A stretch of DNA of 64,000 bases from an uncultured Neglectibacter sp. (GTDB taxonomy: Bacteria > Bacillota > Clostridia > Oscillospirales > Acutalibacteraceae). The notes below the pieces were generated by a model. The model worked only from the letters and a program-made list of their open reading frames with translations, was not told where the DNA came from and searched no databases. The stretch lies in contig CAMNSA010000004.1 in NCBI GenBank assembly GCA_946554335.1, positions 62,001 through 126,000 on the forward strand, given 5' to 3'. The number at the start of each line of letters is the position of its first letter. Within the stretch, counting starts at the first letter, position 1. Below are positions 5,193-53,614 of the stretch, piece after piece. The position numbers and the translations under genes were made by a program.

Positions 5193-5937
5193 TGCTCAGC
5201 ACCTCCTTCGCGGCCCTGATCTTTTCCCGGTCCGTGCGGAAGATCTCATATTCGCTCAGGGAGGGAAGCCCCATACTCACCGCCGGGTTTCGATATTTCA
5301 TGCCGCTTTGCACAATCCGCTTTCCGCTCATATGGAATTCTTTCGCCTCGGGAAGCTTCCGCAAAAGCGGCCGGAGACTTTGGGCGTCCACTCCTCCCCC
5401 CAGCAGCAGAGGGACCTTTTCCGCCTTTTCCATCAGCTTTTTGAGCAGGGAAACACCCTTCAGGCAGGTCTCCGCCTGGCCGGAGGTAAGAATCCGATCC
5501 ACTCCCATGCTTTCGCACAGCTTCAAGGCCTCAAAGGGGTCCTGACACACATCAAAGGCCCTGTGCAGCGTGAAGGAGGCCTTATACCGGTGAGAAAGGG
5601 ACAAAAGCTCAAAAAGCCGTTCCTCGTCTAAGCCTCCGTCAGGGTTCAGGCAGCCGCACACTACTCCCTGGGCGCCCTCCTCCAAAAAGCGTTTTGCTTC
5701 CTCCAGCAAAAGGGAGAATTCCTGCTTTGTATAGAGAAAGTCGCCGAAGCGGGGGCGCAGCAGCACATGGACTCTAAGCCCCGTTTCCCGCTTTACCGCC
5801 CGATAGAGACTGAGGCTTGGGGTGGTGCCGCCGATCACCAGATTGGCGCACAGCTCCAGTCGGTCCGCTCCTCCCGCCTTTGCTTCCTGAGCAGATTCCA
5901 CACTGTCCACACAGACTTCCAATATCCTTTCGCTCAC
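5179..5937 (-). CDS. cutC: CutC family TIM-barrel protein
   Basis: 252 residues covering the whole CutC family. It begins MSERILEVCVDSVESA and continues AGGADRLELCANL-IGGTTPSL, the conserved N-terminal signature, with a later LLGGGVDAQSL phosphate-loop-like segment typical of TIM barrels. CutC is described as a copper-homeostasis protein, but its enzymatic role is not settled. It lies 4 bp downstream of the GH29 fucosidase gene and overlaps the transglutaminase-like gene, so the three form an operon. A metabolic role linked to sugar release is as plausible as a copper role. Confidence 0.9.
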   Translation of the reverse strand: MSERILEVCVDSVESAQEAKAGGADRLELCANLVIGGTTPSLSLYRAVKRETGLRVHVLLRPRFGDFLYTKQEFSLLLEEAKRFLEEGAQGVVCGCLNPDGGLDEERLFELLSLSHRYKASFTLHRAFDVCQDPFEALKLCESMGVDRILTSGQAETCLKGVSLLKKLMEKAEKVPLLLGGGVDAQSLRPLLRKLPEAKEFHMSGKRIVQSGMKYRNPAVSMGLPSLSEYEIFRTDREKIRAAKEVLSSGIL

Positions 5938-35447: not shown

Positions 35448-35558
35448 TTAGTTGTTAGGTTTCAGTCGTTAGTTGTTAGAGAAAAGCAAGGGAAAGGGCA
35501 CTCCCTTTCCCTTGACCTTCTCTAACGACTAATATCTAACATCTAACATCTAACAACT
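35448..35558. mobile_element. Small MITE-like inverted-repeat element
   Basis: The left end (TTAGTTGTTAG ... GTTAGAGAA) recurs as its complement at the right end (TTCTCTAAC ... CTAACAACT), with internal partial copies of the CTAACAT repeat. The centre is a perfect 12-bp stem (CAAGGGAAAGGG, 35487-35514) with loop CACT. It encodes nothing. The same end sequences flank the larger element at 44552-44961, which is why I treat it as a repeated, possibly mobile, family. Confidence 0.6.
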
Positions 35559-43616: not shown

Positions 43617-43643
43617 AATATCAGCAAATGAACTTCGGGGCAA
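43615..43643 (-). promoter_or_regulatory. Possible promoter of the NAD(P)HX repair gene
   Basis: Minus-strand TTGCCC-17 bp-TATTAT, overlapping the ribU promoter and the 5' edge of the riboswitch. Weak -35; alternative sites may exist. Confidence 0.35.
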
Positions 43644-43749
43644 GGTGAAAATCCTTACCGGCAGTAAAAGTCTGCGAACGAAAGCTTTCCGCTTTCGCCG
43701 ATCCGGTGAAATTCCGGTACCGACGGTCAAAGTCCGGATGGAAGAAGAT
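43632..43749 (+). ncRNA. FMN riboswitch (RFN element)
   Basis: Conserved RFN blocks in order: CTTCGGGGCAAGGTGAAAAT, CCTTACCGGCAGT, AGTCTGCGA, a variable stem, GATCCGGTGAAATTCCGGTA, CCGACGGTCAAAGTCCGGAT and the closing GAAGAAGAT that pairs with ACTTC at the start. It binds FMN and controls the downstream riboflavin transporter by premature termination at 43777-43807. Confidence 0.95.
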
Positions 43750-43776
43750 TCGTTGAGCCGTTTTTCGCGCGCTCTG

Positions 43777-43855: not shown

Positions 43856-44542
43856 ATGCAAAGCTCTTCCCAACCGAAAAAGGTGGACCTCAGAAAGCTG
43901 TGTGTCACCGCTGTGCTGGCCACTCTGGCCTACGTTTCCCTGTTGTTTCGCATCCCCATCGTCCTGTTTTTAAGCTACGAGCCCAAGGATGTGCTCATCG
44001 CCCTGGGCGGGTTCCTGTTCGGACCTTTGACCAGCGTCGTCATGTCAGTGCTGGTCTCTCTTCTGGAGATGGTCACCATCTCCAGCACGGGGATCATCGG
44101 CTGTGTGATGAACATTTTGGGCACCTGCGCCTTTGCCTGCACAGCCTCCGTCATCTACCAGAAAAAGCGCTCTCTTTCCGGCGCGGTGATCGCTCTGGTT
44201 TCCGCCTGTCTGGTCATGACGGCCACCATGCTTCTGTGGAACTACTTTATCACGCCCTTCTATATGTGCCCGCCTGACATGACCGTGGGACAGATGCGTG
44301 GGCAGGTGGCGGGGATGCTGATTCCCATCTTTTTGCCCTTTAATCTGTTAAAAAGCGGGCTCAACAGCGCTCTGCTGCTGCTTCTGTATAAGCCTCTGGT
44401 CACTGCCCTGCGCAGGGCCAAGGTCCTGCCCGGCTCTTCCGAAGGGGAAAAGGGAAAGGTCAACCTCTGGATGATCCTTGTGTCTCTTTTGCTTCTGTGC
44501 GTGCTGATTTTAGGCTTTTTGAAGCTCAGTGGAGCGATTTAA
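43856..44542 (+). CDS. ribU: Riboflavin ECF transporter S component (RibU type)
   Basis: 228 residues, six predicted helices. LFRIPIVLFLSYEPKDVLIALGG contains the YEPKD segment characteristic of RibU, followed by FGPLTSVVMSVLVSLLEM, IIGCVMNILGTCAF and a LLWNYFITPFYM segment with the FLPFNLLKSGLNSALLLLLY end. RibU captures riboflavin and works with a shared EcfAAT module, not encoded here. Control by the FMN riboswitch supports the assignment. The long hydrophilic insert (GSSEGEKGKVN) precedes a last helix. Confidence 0.93.
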   Translation: MQSSSQPKKVDLRKLCVTAVLATLAYVSLLFRIPIVLFLSYEPKDVLIALGGFLFGPLTSVVMSVLVSLLEMVTISSTGIIGCVMNILGTCAFACTASVIYQKKRSLSGAVIALVSACLVMTATMLLWNYFITPFYMCPPDMTVGQMRGQVAGMLIPIFLPFNLLKSGLNSALLLLLYKPLVTALRRAKVLPGSSEGEKGKVNLWMILVSLLLLCVLILGFLKLSGAI

Positions 44543-44551
44543 GCCGGATAG

Positions 44552-44961
44552 TTATTAGTTGTTCGTTATTAGTCGTTAGAAAAAGCCTTGGCTCCCCCTT
44601 TGGGGTGAGCGCGTCCCGGTGGGACGCTGGTGCGAACTGGTCTACGCTTCCGCTCCGGGTGATGGCCTCCGGTGGAGGCCGTTCATCACTGACCGAACCG
44701 GCAGGTGAGACCGTTGCTGGGCGTGCCCCACCGGGGCACAGCAACCGAGGCGGCAGCCGAGAGAGCGCGTCCCGGTGGGACGCTGATGCGAACTGGTCTC
44801 CGTTTCCACTTCGGGTGCAAAGCGCCGGTGGCGCTTGTTCCGCATCGACCGAGTTGGCAAACGAGAACATTGCTGGACGCATGCCACTGGCATGCAGCAA
44901 CCGAGCCGGTAGGCGAGAAGAGCGTCCTTTCTAACCACTCACGACTAAAAACTAACAACTA
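44552..44961. mobile_element. MITE-like element with terminal inverted repeats and two structured units
   Basis: The left end (TAGTTGTTCGTTATTAGTCG then TTAGAAA, 44556-44582) matches the complement of the right end (44928-44961) with a small gap. Inside are a CTCCCCCTTTGGGG hairpin and two tandem 156-bp units. There is no protein I can support. The ends match the element at 35448-35558. Confidence 0.6.
44609..44920. repeat. Two tandem 156-bp units with covarying three-base-loop hairpins
   Basis: Unit A is 44609-44764, unit B 44765-44920, aligned without gaps, 114 of 156 positions identical by hand count. Each holds three 7-bp stems with 3-base loops: H1 (44611-44627; 44767-44783) is identical in both; H2 (44664-44680; 44820-44836) and H3 (44723-44739; 44879-44895) each differ at eight bases that form four compensating pairs, with no pair broken. 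H1 and H2 have CC-GGT-GG tips; H3 of unit A has the complement. A stem such as GATGCG/CGCATC encloses H2 in unit B. Structure, not coding, seems to be under selection. A start of a third unit (AGCGTCC) follows. Confidence 0.8.
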
Positions 44962-45139
44962 GAAAGCCTCCCTCTCCGTCATGGCTTCGCCATGCCACCT
45001 CTCCCAAAGGGAGAGGCAAGATGGAATTTGCAGTCCCCAACTTGGTTCCCCCTTTGGGGTGAGTACGCCCCAGAAGGAGAGCCAAGAGGGAGAACAAGTC
45101 TGCGGGCTAAAGAAAAGCAAGCCACTTTGAATCAGGCGT
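44962..45139. repeat. REP-like composite repeat region between ribU and GH2 genes
   Basis: No gene. Contains the tight hairpins ATGGC-TTC-GCCAT and CCTCTCCC-AAA-GGGAGAGG, and at 45041-45062 a second copy (TTGGTTCCCCCTTTGGGGTG) of a motif seen at 44588-44606. It resembles the dispersed hairpin repeats common in gut Bacillota genomes; I recall that pattern but cannot verify it here. Near 45195-45217 the CATCTAA repeats resemble the ends of the MITE-like element. Confidence 0.45.
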
Positions 45140-45175: not shown

Positions 45176-45219
45176 TGTCAAAATGCCCTTTCCCAGCATC
45201 TAATATCCAGCATCTAAAA

Positions 45220-46938
45220 TCAGTCTTCAATCGCTGCTTTCCTGCTGTTCACCCTGCGGAAAAACTCCACATCCATTTTGGGTGTGCGGTCGTAGTAGTA
45301 GACGCCGTTCTGTTCCTGCTCCACATCGGTAAGCTGGGTGTAGCAGAATCCCAACATTCTGGGGTTGCCCAGCAGGGCGTTTGTGAGCTTCTCGTAGCGC
45401 TCCTGATACTCCTCGATGGTCTTGGGGCCGTCTCCGTATCCCCAGGCCGTCTTGTCAGAGGATTCCTTCGCCCACTTGATCCCGCCATACTCGCTGACAA
45501 ACATAGGCATCCCTTCCCGGTACTGCTGGCGCTCTTCAAACCGGTCGTAGAAGGGTCCTGTCCCCTCGGAAAACGGGCGGTAGGTCTCGGCAAATTTCTC
45601 CGGGTCCTGCTCGTAGTCGTGCACATCGAAAATATCGGTCTCCACATGGAAGTTCCCGCTGGTATCGATGCAGGGACGGGTGGGGTCCCACTGCTTCGTC
45701 AGCCGGTAGACCGTTCGCAGAAGGGAATCCAGCTGCCTCCTGCCCTCATAGTCCCAGGTCTCGTTAAAGGGACACCAGCCGATGATGGCGGGGTGGTTAA
45801 AGTCCCGCTCCATGGCCTGCATCCACTCCGGCAAAAAGGCCTCCAGGGCTCCCTGAGAGGAAATATCCAAACCCCAGCTTGCCATCTCGCCCCAGACGAG
45901 GTAGCCCATCCGGTCGCAGTGATAGAGGAATCTGGGCTCAAACACCTTCTGGTGCAGTCTCGCGCCGTTGAATCCGGCCGCCATGGAAAGGCGGATGTCG
46001 TTTGCCAGCGCCTCGTCGTCGGGGGCGGTGTAGATTCCGTCCGAATAAAAGCCCTGGTCCAGGACCAGGCGCTGAAACACAGGGCGGCCATTTACGAGGA
46101 AGCGATACCCGTCCAGGCGCACCTCTCTCAGGCCGAAATAGCTGTTCACCTGATCTTCTCCAAAGGAGAGCCGCAGATCGTAAAGTCTGCCCGCACCCGG
46201 CTCCCAAAGATGCGTTTCCGAAAGGGGCAAGGTCAGGCATACGACGCCGCCCTGAGTCTTTGCCCGGGCTTTTCCGCAGAGGCGCCCCTCAAAGGAAGCC
46301 TCCACGCAAAGCGTGCCCGCTCCCCGCACCTTTGCCTCTACCGTCACTGTGCTTTCTTCGATATTGGGGAAATACCGGACACTTTCCACATAGGCCTCGG
46401 GCACGAACTCCAGCCACACCGTCTGCCAGATCCCGATGGTCCTGGTGTAGAAGCAGCCGTAGGAAGCGTAGCGGTCGCTCTGTTTGCCTGTGGGCTGAAG
46501 CGGGTCACGCTCGTCATCCTCTGCATATACCGTGAGGTGATTCTCTCCCGGATGCAGGAAAGAGGTGACCTCCAGCGCAAAGGACACATATCCCCCCTGA
46601 TGCTCCCCTGCCTTTTCCCCGTTTACGAACACACGGCAGCGATAGTCCACCGCGCCGAAATGCAGGATCACTCTGCCCAAAAGCTCTTTCTCGGAAAGGA
46701 CAAGAGTGCGATGATACCACACCGCCGGGATAAAATCCCGATACCCGATGCCGCTGAGCCTGCTTTGGGGGCAGAAGGGAACCACAATGCTCTCCTCCCA
46801 CTGCTCTCTGTTTTGATAGTCCTTTTCCAGGCCGCTTTTGTTCATGTCAAAAGCGAAATCCCAGGTTCCGTTTAAATTTCGCCAGCTCTCCCGCTGAAAC
46901 TGTGGGAAAGGATGCTCCGCTCTTCTGATCTCCGCCAT
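45220..46938 (-). CDS. Glycoside hydrolase family 2 enzyme
   Basis: 572 residues, no signal peptide. Sugar-binding jelly-roll (1-180: NLNGTWDFAFD, YRCRVFVNGEKAGEHQGGY, RTIGIWQTVWLE), Ig-like domain (180-275) and catalytic barrel with acid/base Glu393 in WCPFNETWD and nucleophile Glu482 in FVSEYGGI. It is short for the family and lacks the extra C-terminal domains of LacZ. The activity may be beta-galactosidase, beta-glucuronidase or beta-mannosidase; the sequence alone does not settle it. GGGAGG precedes the ATG by 8 bases. Stands alone with its own promoter and terminator. Confidence 0.9.
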   Translation of the reverse strand: MAEIRRAEHPFPQFQRESWRNLNGTWDFAFDMNKSGLEKDYQNREQWEESIVVPFCPQSRLSGIGYRDFIPAVWYHRTLVLSEKELLGRVILHFGAVDYRCRVFVNGEKAGEHQGGYVSFALEVTSFLHPGENHLTVYAEDDERDPLQPTGKQSDRYASYGCFYTRTIGIWQTVWLEFVPEAYVESVRYFPNIEESTVTVEAKVRGAGTLCVEASFEGRLCGKARAKTQGGVVCLTLPLSETHLWEPGAGRLYDLRLSFGEDQVNSYFGLREVRLDGYRFLVNGRPVFQRLVLDQGFYSDGIYTAPDDEALANDIRLSMAAGFNGARLHQKVFEPRFLYHCDRMGYLVWGEMASWGLDISSQGALEAFLPEWMQAMERDFNHPAIIGWCPFNETWDYEGRRQLDSLLRTVYRLTKQWDPTRPCIDTSGNFHVETDIFDVHDYEQDPEKFAETYRPFSEGTGPFYDRFEERQQYREGMPMFVSEYGGIKWAKESSDKTAWGYGDGPKTIEEYQERYEKLTNALLGNPRMLGFCYTQLTDVEQEQNGVYYYDRTPKMDVEFFRRVNSRKAAIED

Positions 46939-52300: not shown

Positions 52301-53614
52301 TTACAGTTTTAGCTCGTCCAATAACGCGGCCGCCTGGGAGACGCTGGTCTCCTTTTCCGCAGCGATCCGGGCGAGGTCCTCGTACTCGTATTTTGAGCGG
52401 ATCACGCCGTAACCGGAGCTATCCTTGCGGCGCACCGTCCCATAGGGCGTTTCCAGCTCTGTGACGCTTCGTTCCAAGGTGTAGCGCCGGGTCTTCACTT
52501 CCCGGATCCCGATGGTGGTGGTGTACCGGAAGATAAGCTGTACCATCTTTTCCCGGTCCTCTTCCGGACACATCACCCGGATCAAAAGCCCCGGCCGGGA
52601 TTTTTTCATGCCGATGGGCACCGTGTACACATCCAGGGCTCCGGCCTCCAACAGCTGCCTGGTGGCAAAGCCCACGGCCTCACCCGTCATGTCGTCCACA
52701 TTGCAGGACAGTTCCAGCACCTGACCCTTTTGGTCGTCGCTTTCTCCCAACAGAGCCCTCACGCAGTTGGCGGCCTCAAATTCCTTTTTCCCCATGCCGT
52801 AGCCGATCTTCTCCACCCGCATCACGGGAGAAGGGCCGAAGGAGGACACAAAGTGCTTCAAAAGAGCCGCGCCGGTAGGCGTGCAAAGCTCTCCCCTGAC
52901 GGTCCCGCCGTAGATGGGGACGCCTTGCAGGATATGGGCGGTGGCCGGAGCGGGCACAGGCAGGATCCCGTGAGCGCAGCGCACCTGTCCGCTTCCCACA
53001 TGGATGGGAGAGGCCAGGATCCGGTCAGGACTAAGCTCTTCTATGAGCATACAAACCGCCGTCACATCGGCGATGGCGTCCATGGTTCCCACCTCGTGGA
53101 AGTGGATCTCTTCCACCGGCCTTCCGTGGGCCCGGCTCTCCGCCTGGGCGATCAGCTCATACACCGCGACGGCGTCCGACCGTACCTTTTGAGAGACTGG
53201 AAGCCGCTCTAAAATGCCGCGGATATCCCCCATCCCCGCATGGTGATGGCTATGGGCGTGGTCGTGATGATGGTCGTGCTCATGCTCATGTTCATGTTCA
53301 TGTTCATGTTCATGGGTATGTTCGTGGTCATGCTCGTGTTCATGGGCATGGTGGTGCTCATGGTCATGGCCATGATCGTGGTGGTGCCCATGGCCGTCCA
53401 TGCTCTCCTCCTCTTTTCCGAACACGGAGACAGACACATGTGTGCCGGTGATGCCGCAGGACACCGCCGGAGCGGCCTTCATCTCAACGCCCGGGATCCC
53501 AAGAGCAGCGAAACGACGAAGAAAGTCCCGCGGGTCCGGATGGAGCTCCAACAGGGCCGCCGTCAGCATATCCCCCGCCGCGCCCATATTACATTCCAGA
53601 TAAAGTGTTTTCAT
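52301..53614 (-). CDS. larC: Nickel-pincer cofactor insertion protein LarC
   Basis: 437 residues. LarC inserts nickel into the pincer nucleotide in a CTP-dependent step. It starts MKTLYLECNMGAAGDMLTAAL, the family signature; EEIHFHEVGTMDAIADV, HGILPVPAPATAHIL, ELCTPTGAALLKHF and ELSCNVDDMTGEAVGF follow. Residues 75-125 hold 30 His in 51 residues, mostly HE/HD alternation, a probable nickel store. Some LarC proteins are made by ribosomal frameshift from two ORFs; this one is a single continuous frame. It lies 15 bp after larB. Confidence 0.95.
   Translation of the reverse strand: MKTLYLECNMGAAGDMLTAALLELHPDPRDFLRRFAALGIPGVEMKAAPAVSCGITGTHVSVSVFGKEEESMDGHGHHHDHGHDHEHHHAHEHEHDHEHTHEHEHEHEHEHEHDHHHDHAHSHHHAGMGDIRGILERLPVSQKVRSDAVAVYELIAQAESRAHGRPVEEIHFHEVGTMDAIADVTAVCMLIEELSPDRILASPIHVGSGQVRCAHGILPVPAPATAHILQGVPIYGGTVRGELCTPTGAALLKHFVSSFGPSPVMRVEKIGYGMGKKEFEAANCVRALLGESDDQKGQVLELSCNVDDMTGEAVGFATRQLLEAGALDVYTVPIGMKKSRPGLLIRVMCPEEDREKMVQLIFRYTTTIGIREVKTRRYTLERSVTELETPYGTVRRKDSSGYGVIRSKYEYEDLARIAAEKETSVSQAAALLDELKL

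Follow-up and report, generated by a model that had tools for sequence, protein, structure and literature searches.

The tandem repeat at 44609-44920 of the window (the whole stretch of 64,000 nt from an uncultured Neglectibacter sp. that was analysed) had been described in an initial annotation as two 156-bp units with covarying hairpins. Its basic repeating unit is a module of about 53 nt, not the 156-bp unit, and the 156-bp units are probably nests of non-autonomous, small-palindromic mobile DNA (REP/RPE-like) that is new in sequence and fold. On the best reading, the modules constitute a Clostridia family of mobile hairpins that would act as folded single-stranded DNA and whose stems would be rewritten by template switching, the mobiliser and the mechanism being the parts that we infer. 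Comparison shows modules, apparently inserted, within their own copies, within other dispersed palindromes and, in frame, within two phage genes.

The two gapless copies, 44609-44764 and 44765-44920, differ at 42 of 156 positions, the figure given before (40 if the register starts at 44607), and TRF called a period of 156 with 2.1 copies at 44607-44927, in agreement with the claimed tandem repetition. All six hairpins do have a 7-bp stem, a 3-base loop and a CC/GG tip. H1 (44611-44627 / 44767-44783) has the same sequence in both copies, while H2 (44664-44680 / 44820-44836) and H3 (44723-44739 / 44879-44895) each differ in four pairs, all of them compensating. The assertion that no pair is broken holds within the 7-bp stems and fails in the outer arms, where one T-A pair has become A.C, one T-A has become A.A and one G-C has become G.T. 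Beyond the pairs described earlier, three pairs in hairpin B of the inner module and one in the outer arm of that module covary, as does, judged by eye from the sequences, one extra pair in each of two other B hairpins. By arithmetic, a random placement of the 42 differences would leave about 9 of the 21 stem pairs broken and about 0.5 compensated, whereas 0 and 8 are observed. The structure of the 7-bp stems has indeed been kept while the sequence changed. Minimum-free-energy folding of the whole region gave other, longer pairings (z -2.5 and -3.6), hence the local hairpins rest on covariation and not on folding energy.

Each 156-bp unit has the composition M1[M4[M3]], that is, three copies of one module nested in each other, and three modules of about 52-53 nt account for the 156-nt period. 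The first outer module (M1, 44605-44762, plus strand) consists of hairpin A at 44605-44639, with the H1 stem at 44611-44627, and hairpin B at 44744-44762. It is interrupted by the first middle module (M4, 44640-44743, minus strand; hairpin A within 44705-44743 with the H3 stem at 44723-44739, remainder of hairpin B at 44640-44658), which is interrupted in turn by the first inner module (M3, 44659-44711, plus strand; H2 stem at 44664-44680), a complete 53-nt module matched by the covariance model with 74.5 bits. The second unit repeats this arrangement with an outer module (M1, 44761-44918, plus strand; hairpin A 44761-44795, stem 44767-44783, hairpin B 44900-44918) whose first two bases overlap the end of the first one, a middle module (M4, 44796-44899, minus strand; stem 44879-44895, hairpin B remainder 44796-44814) and an inner module of M3 type (44815-44867, plus strand; stem 44820-44836), in which the stem and hairpin B differ from the first copy by compensating changes. 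The nest sits inside a dispersed host palindrome, or shell (CTTGGCTCCCCCTTTGGGG), which also flanks modules elsewhere in the genome and whose left part (44587-44605, plus strand) ends in GG.

Uninterrupted copies of M1 (L002, L006) and M4 (L009, L012, L016) are found elsewhere in the genome, and the M3 module also occurs in L003 and L005. Interrupted and uninterrupted versions read CTCGG[module]CAGTTCG versus CTCGG T CAGTTCG, and CTCCGG[module]CGTTGCTG versus CTCCGG T CGTTGCTG. L002 (C1:88.6 kb) also holds an M1[M4[M3]] nest, and L003 (C10:53.1 kb) holds M4[M3]; since the same nests occur at other loci, composite nests seem to be copied as well. The tandem array itself probably arose by duplication of the triple nest, after which the copies would have diverged. 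A DNA search of the same genome gave 87 matches, the majority of them partial over the query. Several other repeats were observed in the window: an adjoining copy of a larger host palindrome at 44963-45063 (CCCTCTCC..CATGGCTTCGCCATG..GGGAGAGG), which belongs to a separate dispersed family that often hosts modules; short tandem or dispersed repeats (TCTAACAACTAACA-like; CCAGCATCTAAAAT) at 35521-35558, 44552-44578, 44936-44962 and 45193-45221, which also flank hairpin nests elsewhere in the genome; and an 18-bp/6-bp tandem repeat (TGGTCATGTTCATGGTCA) at 53239-53382.

The module reads, in order, a 5-nt arm, a 7-bp stem ending in CC-RGT-GG, a 4-nt linker (mostly GTTC, GTCC or GCCC), the complementary arm and then xGACCGA-NNN-GGCA-NNN-GAGA. 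Hairpin A comprises a 5-bp arm, a 7-bp stem, an RGT loop and a 4-nt bulge. Hairpin B has three Watson-Crick pairs flanked by tandem G.A pairs and a GNNA loop; in an alignment of 97 distinct rows G.A was found in 95, A.G in 90 and the GNNA loop in all 97. The outer arm has GA opposite GA in 16 of the 97 rows and is mostly paired in the remaining ones. Tandem G.A pairs can form in RNA and DNA alike, and, as they occur on one strand only, they mark the likely functional strand. When the inner module was folded as DNA, both strands folded about equally (z -2.0 and -2.5), and hairpin B as drawn was not predicted, so that folding energy does not single out a strand. A route to an autonomous version was sought among B hairpins without hairpin A (32 of 202), where no gene-carrying version was recognised; by eye, most of the 32 are B halves that an oppositely oriented nested insertion has displaced. 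At two loci of one genome (L160 and L162, G026) hairpin B lies beside a different hairpin, of the GAGTTGAC-TTT-GTCAACTC type, in place of hairpin A, and hairpin B may thus join several hairpin types.

Covariance-model searches found the element in many copies, in numbers that vary between genomes of a group of gut bacteria. With model R1 the genome of the window yielded 100 matches at E<=0.01. More than half of these (54) reached E<1e-10, and among the weaker ones some are a hairpin read a second time from the opposite strand. At E<=0.001 the model was positive in 31 of 60 genomes, namely in 26 of 29 of the same genus (own genome included) and in 5 of 31 outside it. Its matches per genome within the genus, all lower bounds on copy number because at most 97 candidates were scored in each genome, range from none (G009, G017, G019) and one (G002, G003) up to at least 107 (G013). 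A broader model, R2, with 14 candidates scored in each genome and copy numbers that are likewise lower bounds, was positive at E<=1e-6 in 24 of 391 genomes and 19 of 223 genera of a class sample, and in 4 of 398 genomes of a phylum sample, three of which are shared with the class sample. A single R2 match (G842:C4:11131-11184, E 1.5e-9) lies in a genome listed in the same phylum and another class, where horizontal transfer or contamination is possible. An exact-pattern scan of GTDB found modules in Blautia, Coprococcus catus, Lachnoclostridium, Acutalibacter, Anaeromassilibacillus, Caccousia and Neglectibacter, among others; its pattern fixed a 16-nt spacer and missed the commoner 15-nt class, so that the 23 matches are not a census. 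By exact pattern, at least 5 of 150 genomes of the family were positive, and the copy-bearing genome G023 is Candidatus Acutalibacter pullistercoris (stretch L136 is identical, letter for letter, within L072). In eight Lachnospiraceae loci (L051, L056, L058, L062, L064, L068, L071, L073) the module forms part of a longer dispersed sequence, conserved over some 200 nt or more as judged by eye, with another long imperfect palindrome. No match was obtained by blastn in plasmid and phage collections, and a pattern scan of IMG/VR returned five contigs; in two of them, L183 and L186, the match falls in coding sequence and seems to be due to chance.

Covariation was also scored over many copies. In the 97 distinct rows from several families, 95.6% of cells were paired and the covariation score was 0.658 against 0.165 for shuffled and at most 0.060 for slid alignments, in an alignment that was fitted to the model structure and so leans towards it; every one of the three helices has a pair position that uses all four Watson-Crick types. 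In 30 gapless modules of the own genome, found by perfect-stem detection and biased accordingly, 93.1% of cells were paired; here the score was 0.695, compared with 0.184 after shuffling and no more than 0.142 after sliding. For two of the five measures of covariation the excess over shuffles is not clear. Pairs changed on both sides numbered 13 versus 11.3 in the 97 rows (reached by 43 of 500 shuffles) and further pair types 38 versus 35.3 (58 of 500), neither of which is convincing; in the 30 modules the corresponding values were 12 versus 10.7 (106 of 500) and 23 versus 25.5 (486 of 500). Because these sets had been found by pairing or by a structural model, the test was repeated with a pattern that required the tip and hairpin B only. 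The first such set of 129 modules, which includes the two probable chance matches L183 and L186, had 630 of 645 variable stem cells in Watson-Crick pairs, 4 G-T, 2 A-C and 9 other, and the Watson-Crick share fell to 45.9% when the 3' arms were shuffled. A larger set of 176 distinct modules, from which those two had been removed, had 869 of 880 variable stem cells in Watson-Crick pairs, 5 G-T, 3 A-C and 3 other, with 165 perfect stems and 37 different ones. The number of G-T pairs (5) thus does not exceed that of all other mismatches (6), a result that speaks against a selected RNA helix and for perfection at the level of DNA.

When the 176 modules were grouped by their sequence outside the 17-nt hairpin, 136 groups resulted, 22 of which had more than one stem. 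In 31 of 37 within-group comparisons the stems were perfect on both sides and differed at 2 (10 comparisons), 4 (14), 6 (6) or 8 (1) positions; the other six had a broken stem, with five single changes and one triple. Comparisons within one genome gave nine perfect cases (three in G026 and one each in G000, G020, G021, G023, G025 and G152) and four broken ones, two of which are one place in two overlapping loci. With 31 of 37 comparisons perfect yet different, changes in the body and in the stem are separate, and most changes of the stem involve it as a unit. According to PMC8794818, several compensating changes can arise in one step through template switching during replication. The earlier claim that the compensating pairs would be very unlikely without selection on structure was consequently too strong, since one such event can account for several of them and since the stems here change as a unit with the rest unchanged. 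The stems could stay perfect and yet diversify if template switching, at replication or at insertion, copied one arm anew from the other; alternatively, recombination that exchanges whole hairpins between copies would resemble such rewriting. A bolder version, possible if doubtful, is a mobile hairpin with an actively rewritten 5-bp variable stem, in which each mobilisation would open or copy the hairpin and put in a new self-templated stem while the CC...GG tips and the body stay fixed. If this were true, the element would carry a diversifying barcode under a constant fold, it would represent mobile DNA of a class for which shape is the only recognition signal, and compensatory covariation of several pairs would be a mutational signature and not a proof of RNA function.

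Filled and empty sites were compared, in every case between paralogous repeats, different species or different phages. GG precedes 147 of 166 modules, and in the filled/empty pairs examined the module lies 3' of GG, 1-3 target bases are lost and there is no target site duplication. G026 and G020 each contain 42 exact copies of the host repeat CCACCTTTGAAAAGG^TGGACG in the empty state, against seven filled ones in G026. The empty palindrome of G026 reads CCACCTTTGAAAAGG-TGGACGAAAC (42 exact copies, two with C for T), and the filled one AAAAGG-[module]-GGACGAAAC or -TGACGAAAC, in seven contexts and with three kinds of stem. In L217, the same place as L185, a module lies in a phage (or prophage) gene belonging to the DUF7768 / nucleoside-deoxyribosyltransferase family. 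The site reads GAAGG[module]TTTTGAC, against GAGGGATATTTTGAC in its nearest relatives, L218 (95% protein identity) and L219 (90%), a net gain of 51 nt that keeps the frame. Among the best 80 of 148 relatives of this gene, 77 of the 79 others have no module there and two are too short to tell; a crude motif flag was positive in 25 of the 80, the full module pattern only in L217. The second phage gene is a portal gene (PHROG 156) in G007, open over 774 codons with an in-frame module in a stretch that is variable between relatives. Its aligned orthologues in G000 and G028 are without the module, and none was found in the five orthologous portal loci L330-L334, three of the six loci having been aligned and the other three checked by pattern. 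In parA (L054, L061, L069) the module brings a stop and interrupts the gene. This parA fragment with its module (L054:2473-2527, L069 near 5754-5796, L061:5171-5225) was seen in two genomes, twice in one of them, and may, with its downstream part still open, mark a mobile region.

From these observations, the mobile form would be the folded single strand of the orientation that bears the tandem G.A pairs and the GNNA and RGT loops, and a putative enzyme would recognise the fold rather than the stem sequence. Most likely, a fold-recognising activity acts on single-stranded DNA, and template switching both keeps and changes the stems. The right junctions vary, with 1-3 bases lost, which is untidy for a dedicated transposase and counts against this explanation. 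The main rival, which we consider unlikely, is dispersal without a dedicated enzyme, in which replication template switching primed at GG microhomology spreads the modules and the same process rewrites the stems; it gains its place from the left junction, fixed at GG, together with the loose right one. Insertion near other hairpins and the missing correlation with the two enzyme families considered below agree with it, as does the capacity of template switching to make compensatory multibase changes, as described in PMC8794818. Against it, copies at distant loci agree at both ends to a base or two, a sign that the ends are recognised, and related species have very different copy numbers.

A structured regulatory RNA or small RNA at the locus, with hairpins kept by selection on the transcript, is less probable still. 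Strong covariation in three helices and the strand-specific tandem G.A pairs and GNNA loop speak for it, as does the position of the array after a gene for the substrate-specific component of an ECF transporter (43856-44542, Pfam PF12822), probably the riboflavin transporter ribU, with an FMN riboswitch (43627-43753) upstream. However, the module is absent from the spacer downstream of ribU, where the array of the window lies, in both genomes with an orthologous ribU (G007, G028). At gathering score Rfam matched only that FMN riboswitch and one tRNA in the window, both outside the array, within which the best match at a permissive threshold was NiCo (20 bits versus a gathering score of 37, E 0.09). 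The modules are dispersed and nested, they have no orientation preference towards neighbouring genes (36 same, 31 opposite), and they are found inside coding genes. By crude longest-ORF gene calls, 10 of their 20 clusters are flanked by tandem ORFs, 6 by divergent and 4 by convergent ones, and a role as transcription terminators was rejected on the same counts. Almost no G-U pairs are present, and compensatory change in RNA is commonly thought to go via G-U, as stated in PMC8794818; it is mainly the lack of G-T pairs that makes us prefer DNA over RNA. Thus, of the structured RNA or DNA-hairpin substrate proposed initially, the DNA hairpin is the better half, and a locus-specific RNA is unsupported given dispersed, nested modules on either strand relative to genes, in variable copy number and inside coding genes.

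Two enzyme families that suit the anatomy of the module were tested as mobilisers. Mobilisation of a GTAG-type REP by an IS200/IS605-like Y1 transposase (RAYT) would suit a small, high-copy palindrome that inserts beside a short fixed motif without target duplication and probably as a single-stranded substrate; we regard it as very unlikely, because Y1_Tnp occurs in 9 of 29 genomes of the genus and is absent from the copy-rich G000, G013, G021, G023 and G025, the zero-copy G009 has two, and the aligned modules carry GTAG at neither end. A resident Y1 enzyme as mobiliser is therefore largely refuted, and it is possible that such an enzyme was lost in the past or missed in incomplete genomes. 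A reverse transcriptase was rejected as well, RVT_1 being found in 12 of the 29 genomes and missing from G021, G023, G025 and G026. Over the 29 genomes of the genus, copy number correlated neither with Y1 transposase nor with RVT_1. Finally, a protein-coding repeat has practically no chance of being the explanation, even with an array open in several frames and two copies read in frame inside phage genes, as both bases of many stem pairs change, copies lie on both strands, 48 of 70 own-genome hairpins are outside crude ORF calls (of the 22 inside ORFs of >=120 aa, at least 13 belong to two ORFs, each of which runs through an entire hairpin array), and no sign was seen of the coding repeat that the initial annotation had named as one outcome that would overturn it.

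Functional RNAs are usually recognised by their covariation. In this case a strong covariation signal has its source in an apparent mobile DNA hairpin in which several pairs changed at once and nothing else did. Structured-RNA screens of human microbiomes, one of which reports 250 palindromic candidates (PMC8040213), might count such elements as RNAs. The family also offers many natural replicate events for measuring template switching in hairpins, displays deep nesting of mobile units of about 53 bp and suggests that Clostridia have some enzyme or process by which hairpins are inserted 3' of GG. We found no published description of it among open-licence PubMed Central papers searched by title and the start of the abstract, a coverage that makes this only weak evidence of novelty.

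The modules may be compared with several known systems. Like bacterial MITEs (PMC10969869, PMC2229807), they are non-autonomous, dispersed and small; unlike them, they have no target duplication and no terminal inverted repeats, since the 5' ends (e.g. GCGCT) and the 3' ends (GAGAC) are not complementary. The small two-hairpin elements cited in PMC7218506, for which mobility was argued, are similar by description only and belong to another domain of life. The attC site of integrons is a folded single strand recognised by its structure, with a variable stem and unpaired bases, and resembles the proposed form of the module in being a folded single strand with these two features; by inspection, its GTTRRRY core is not found at the corresponding place, where the mostly GTTC, GTCC or GCCC linker is followed by the arm. 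The GTAG REPs, REPINs and BIMEs with RAYT (PMC3733652; PMC3116915, PMC2817692) are likewise high-copy extragenic palindromes in mosaics with a possible single-stranded DNA substrate. The modules differ from them in having no correlation with RAYT, no GTAG at the hairpin foot at either end of 38 aligned modules, and unlike hairpins that are not arranged as an inverted pair.

Together with the REPs, the closest kinds on record are the RPEs (Rickettsia palindromic elements) and their CGTC-tagged relatives. The GTAG and CGTC tags are defined in the survey PMC3733652, which also reports in-frame copies inside genes and whose main text contains neither 'Firmicutes' nor 'Clostridi-'. According to this source, CGTC repeats apparently have no dedicated transposase; like the modules, RPE and CGTC repeats are short palindromes with heterogeneous stems, are patchy between species and insert into ORFs in frame with no dedicated transposase known. 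The modules end in GAGAC, GAGAA or GAGAG and have no invariant CGTC on the other strand, nor the tag at one end with a short CCA-like tail. As expected of small palindromic mobile repeats in general, they are dispersed hairpins that are present or absent between relatives and have filled and empty sites, and, in line with the in-frame insertion of RPEs, two phage genes stay open through the module, with parA as a third gene that is interrupted. Unlike RPE and CGTC repeats, they combine two dissimilar hairpins in one unit, carry tandem G.A pairs with RGT and GNNA loops, insert after GG and nest deeply in one another.
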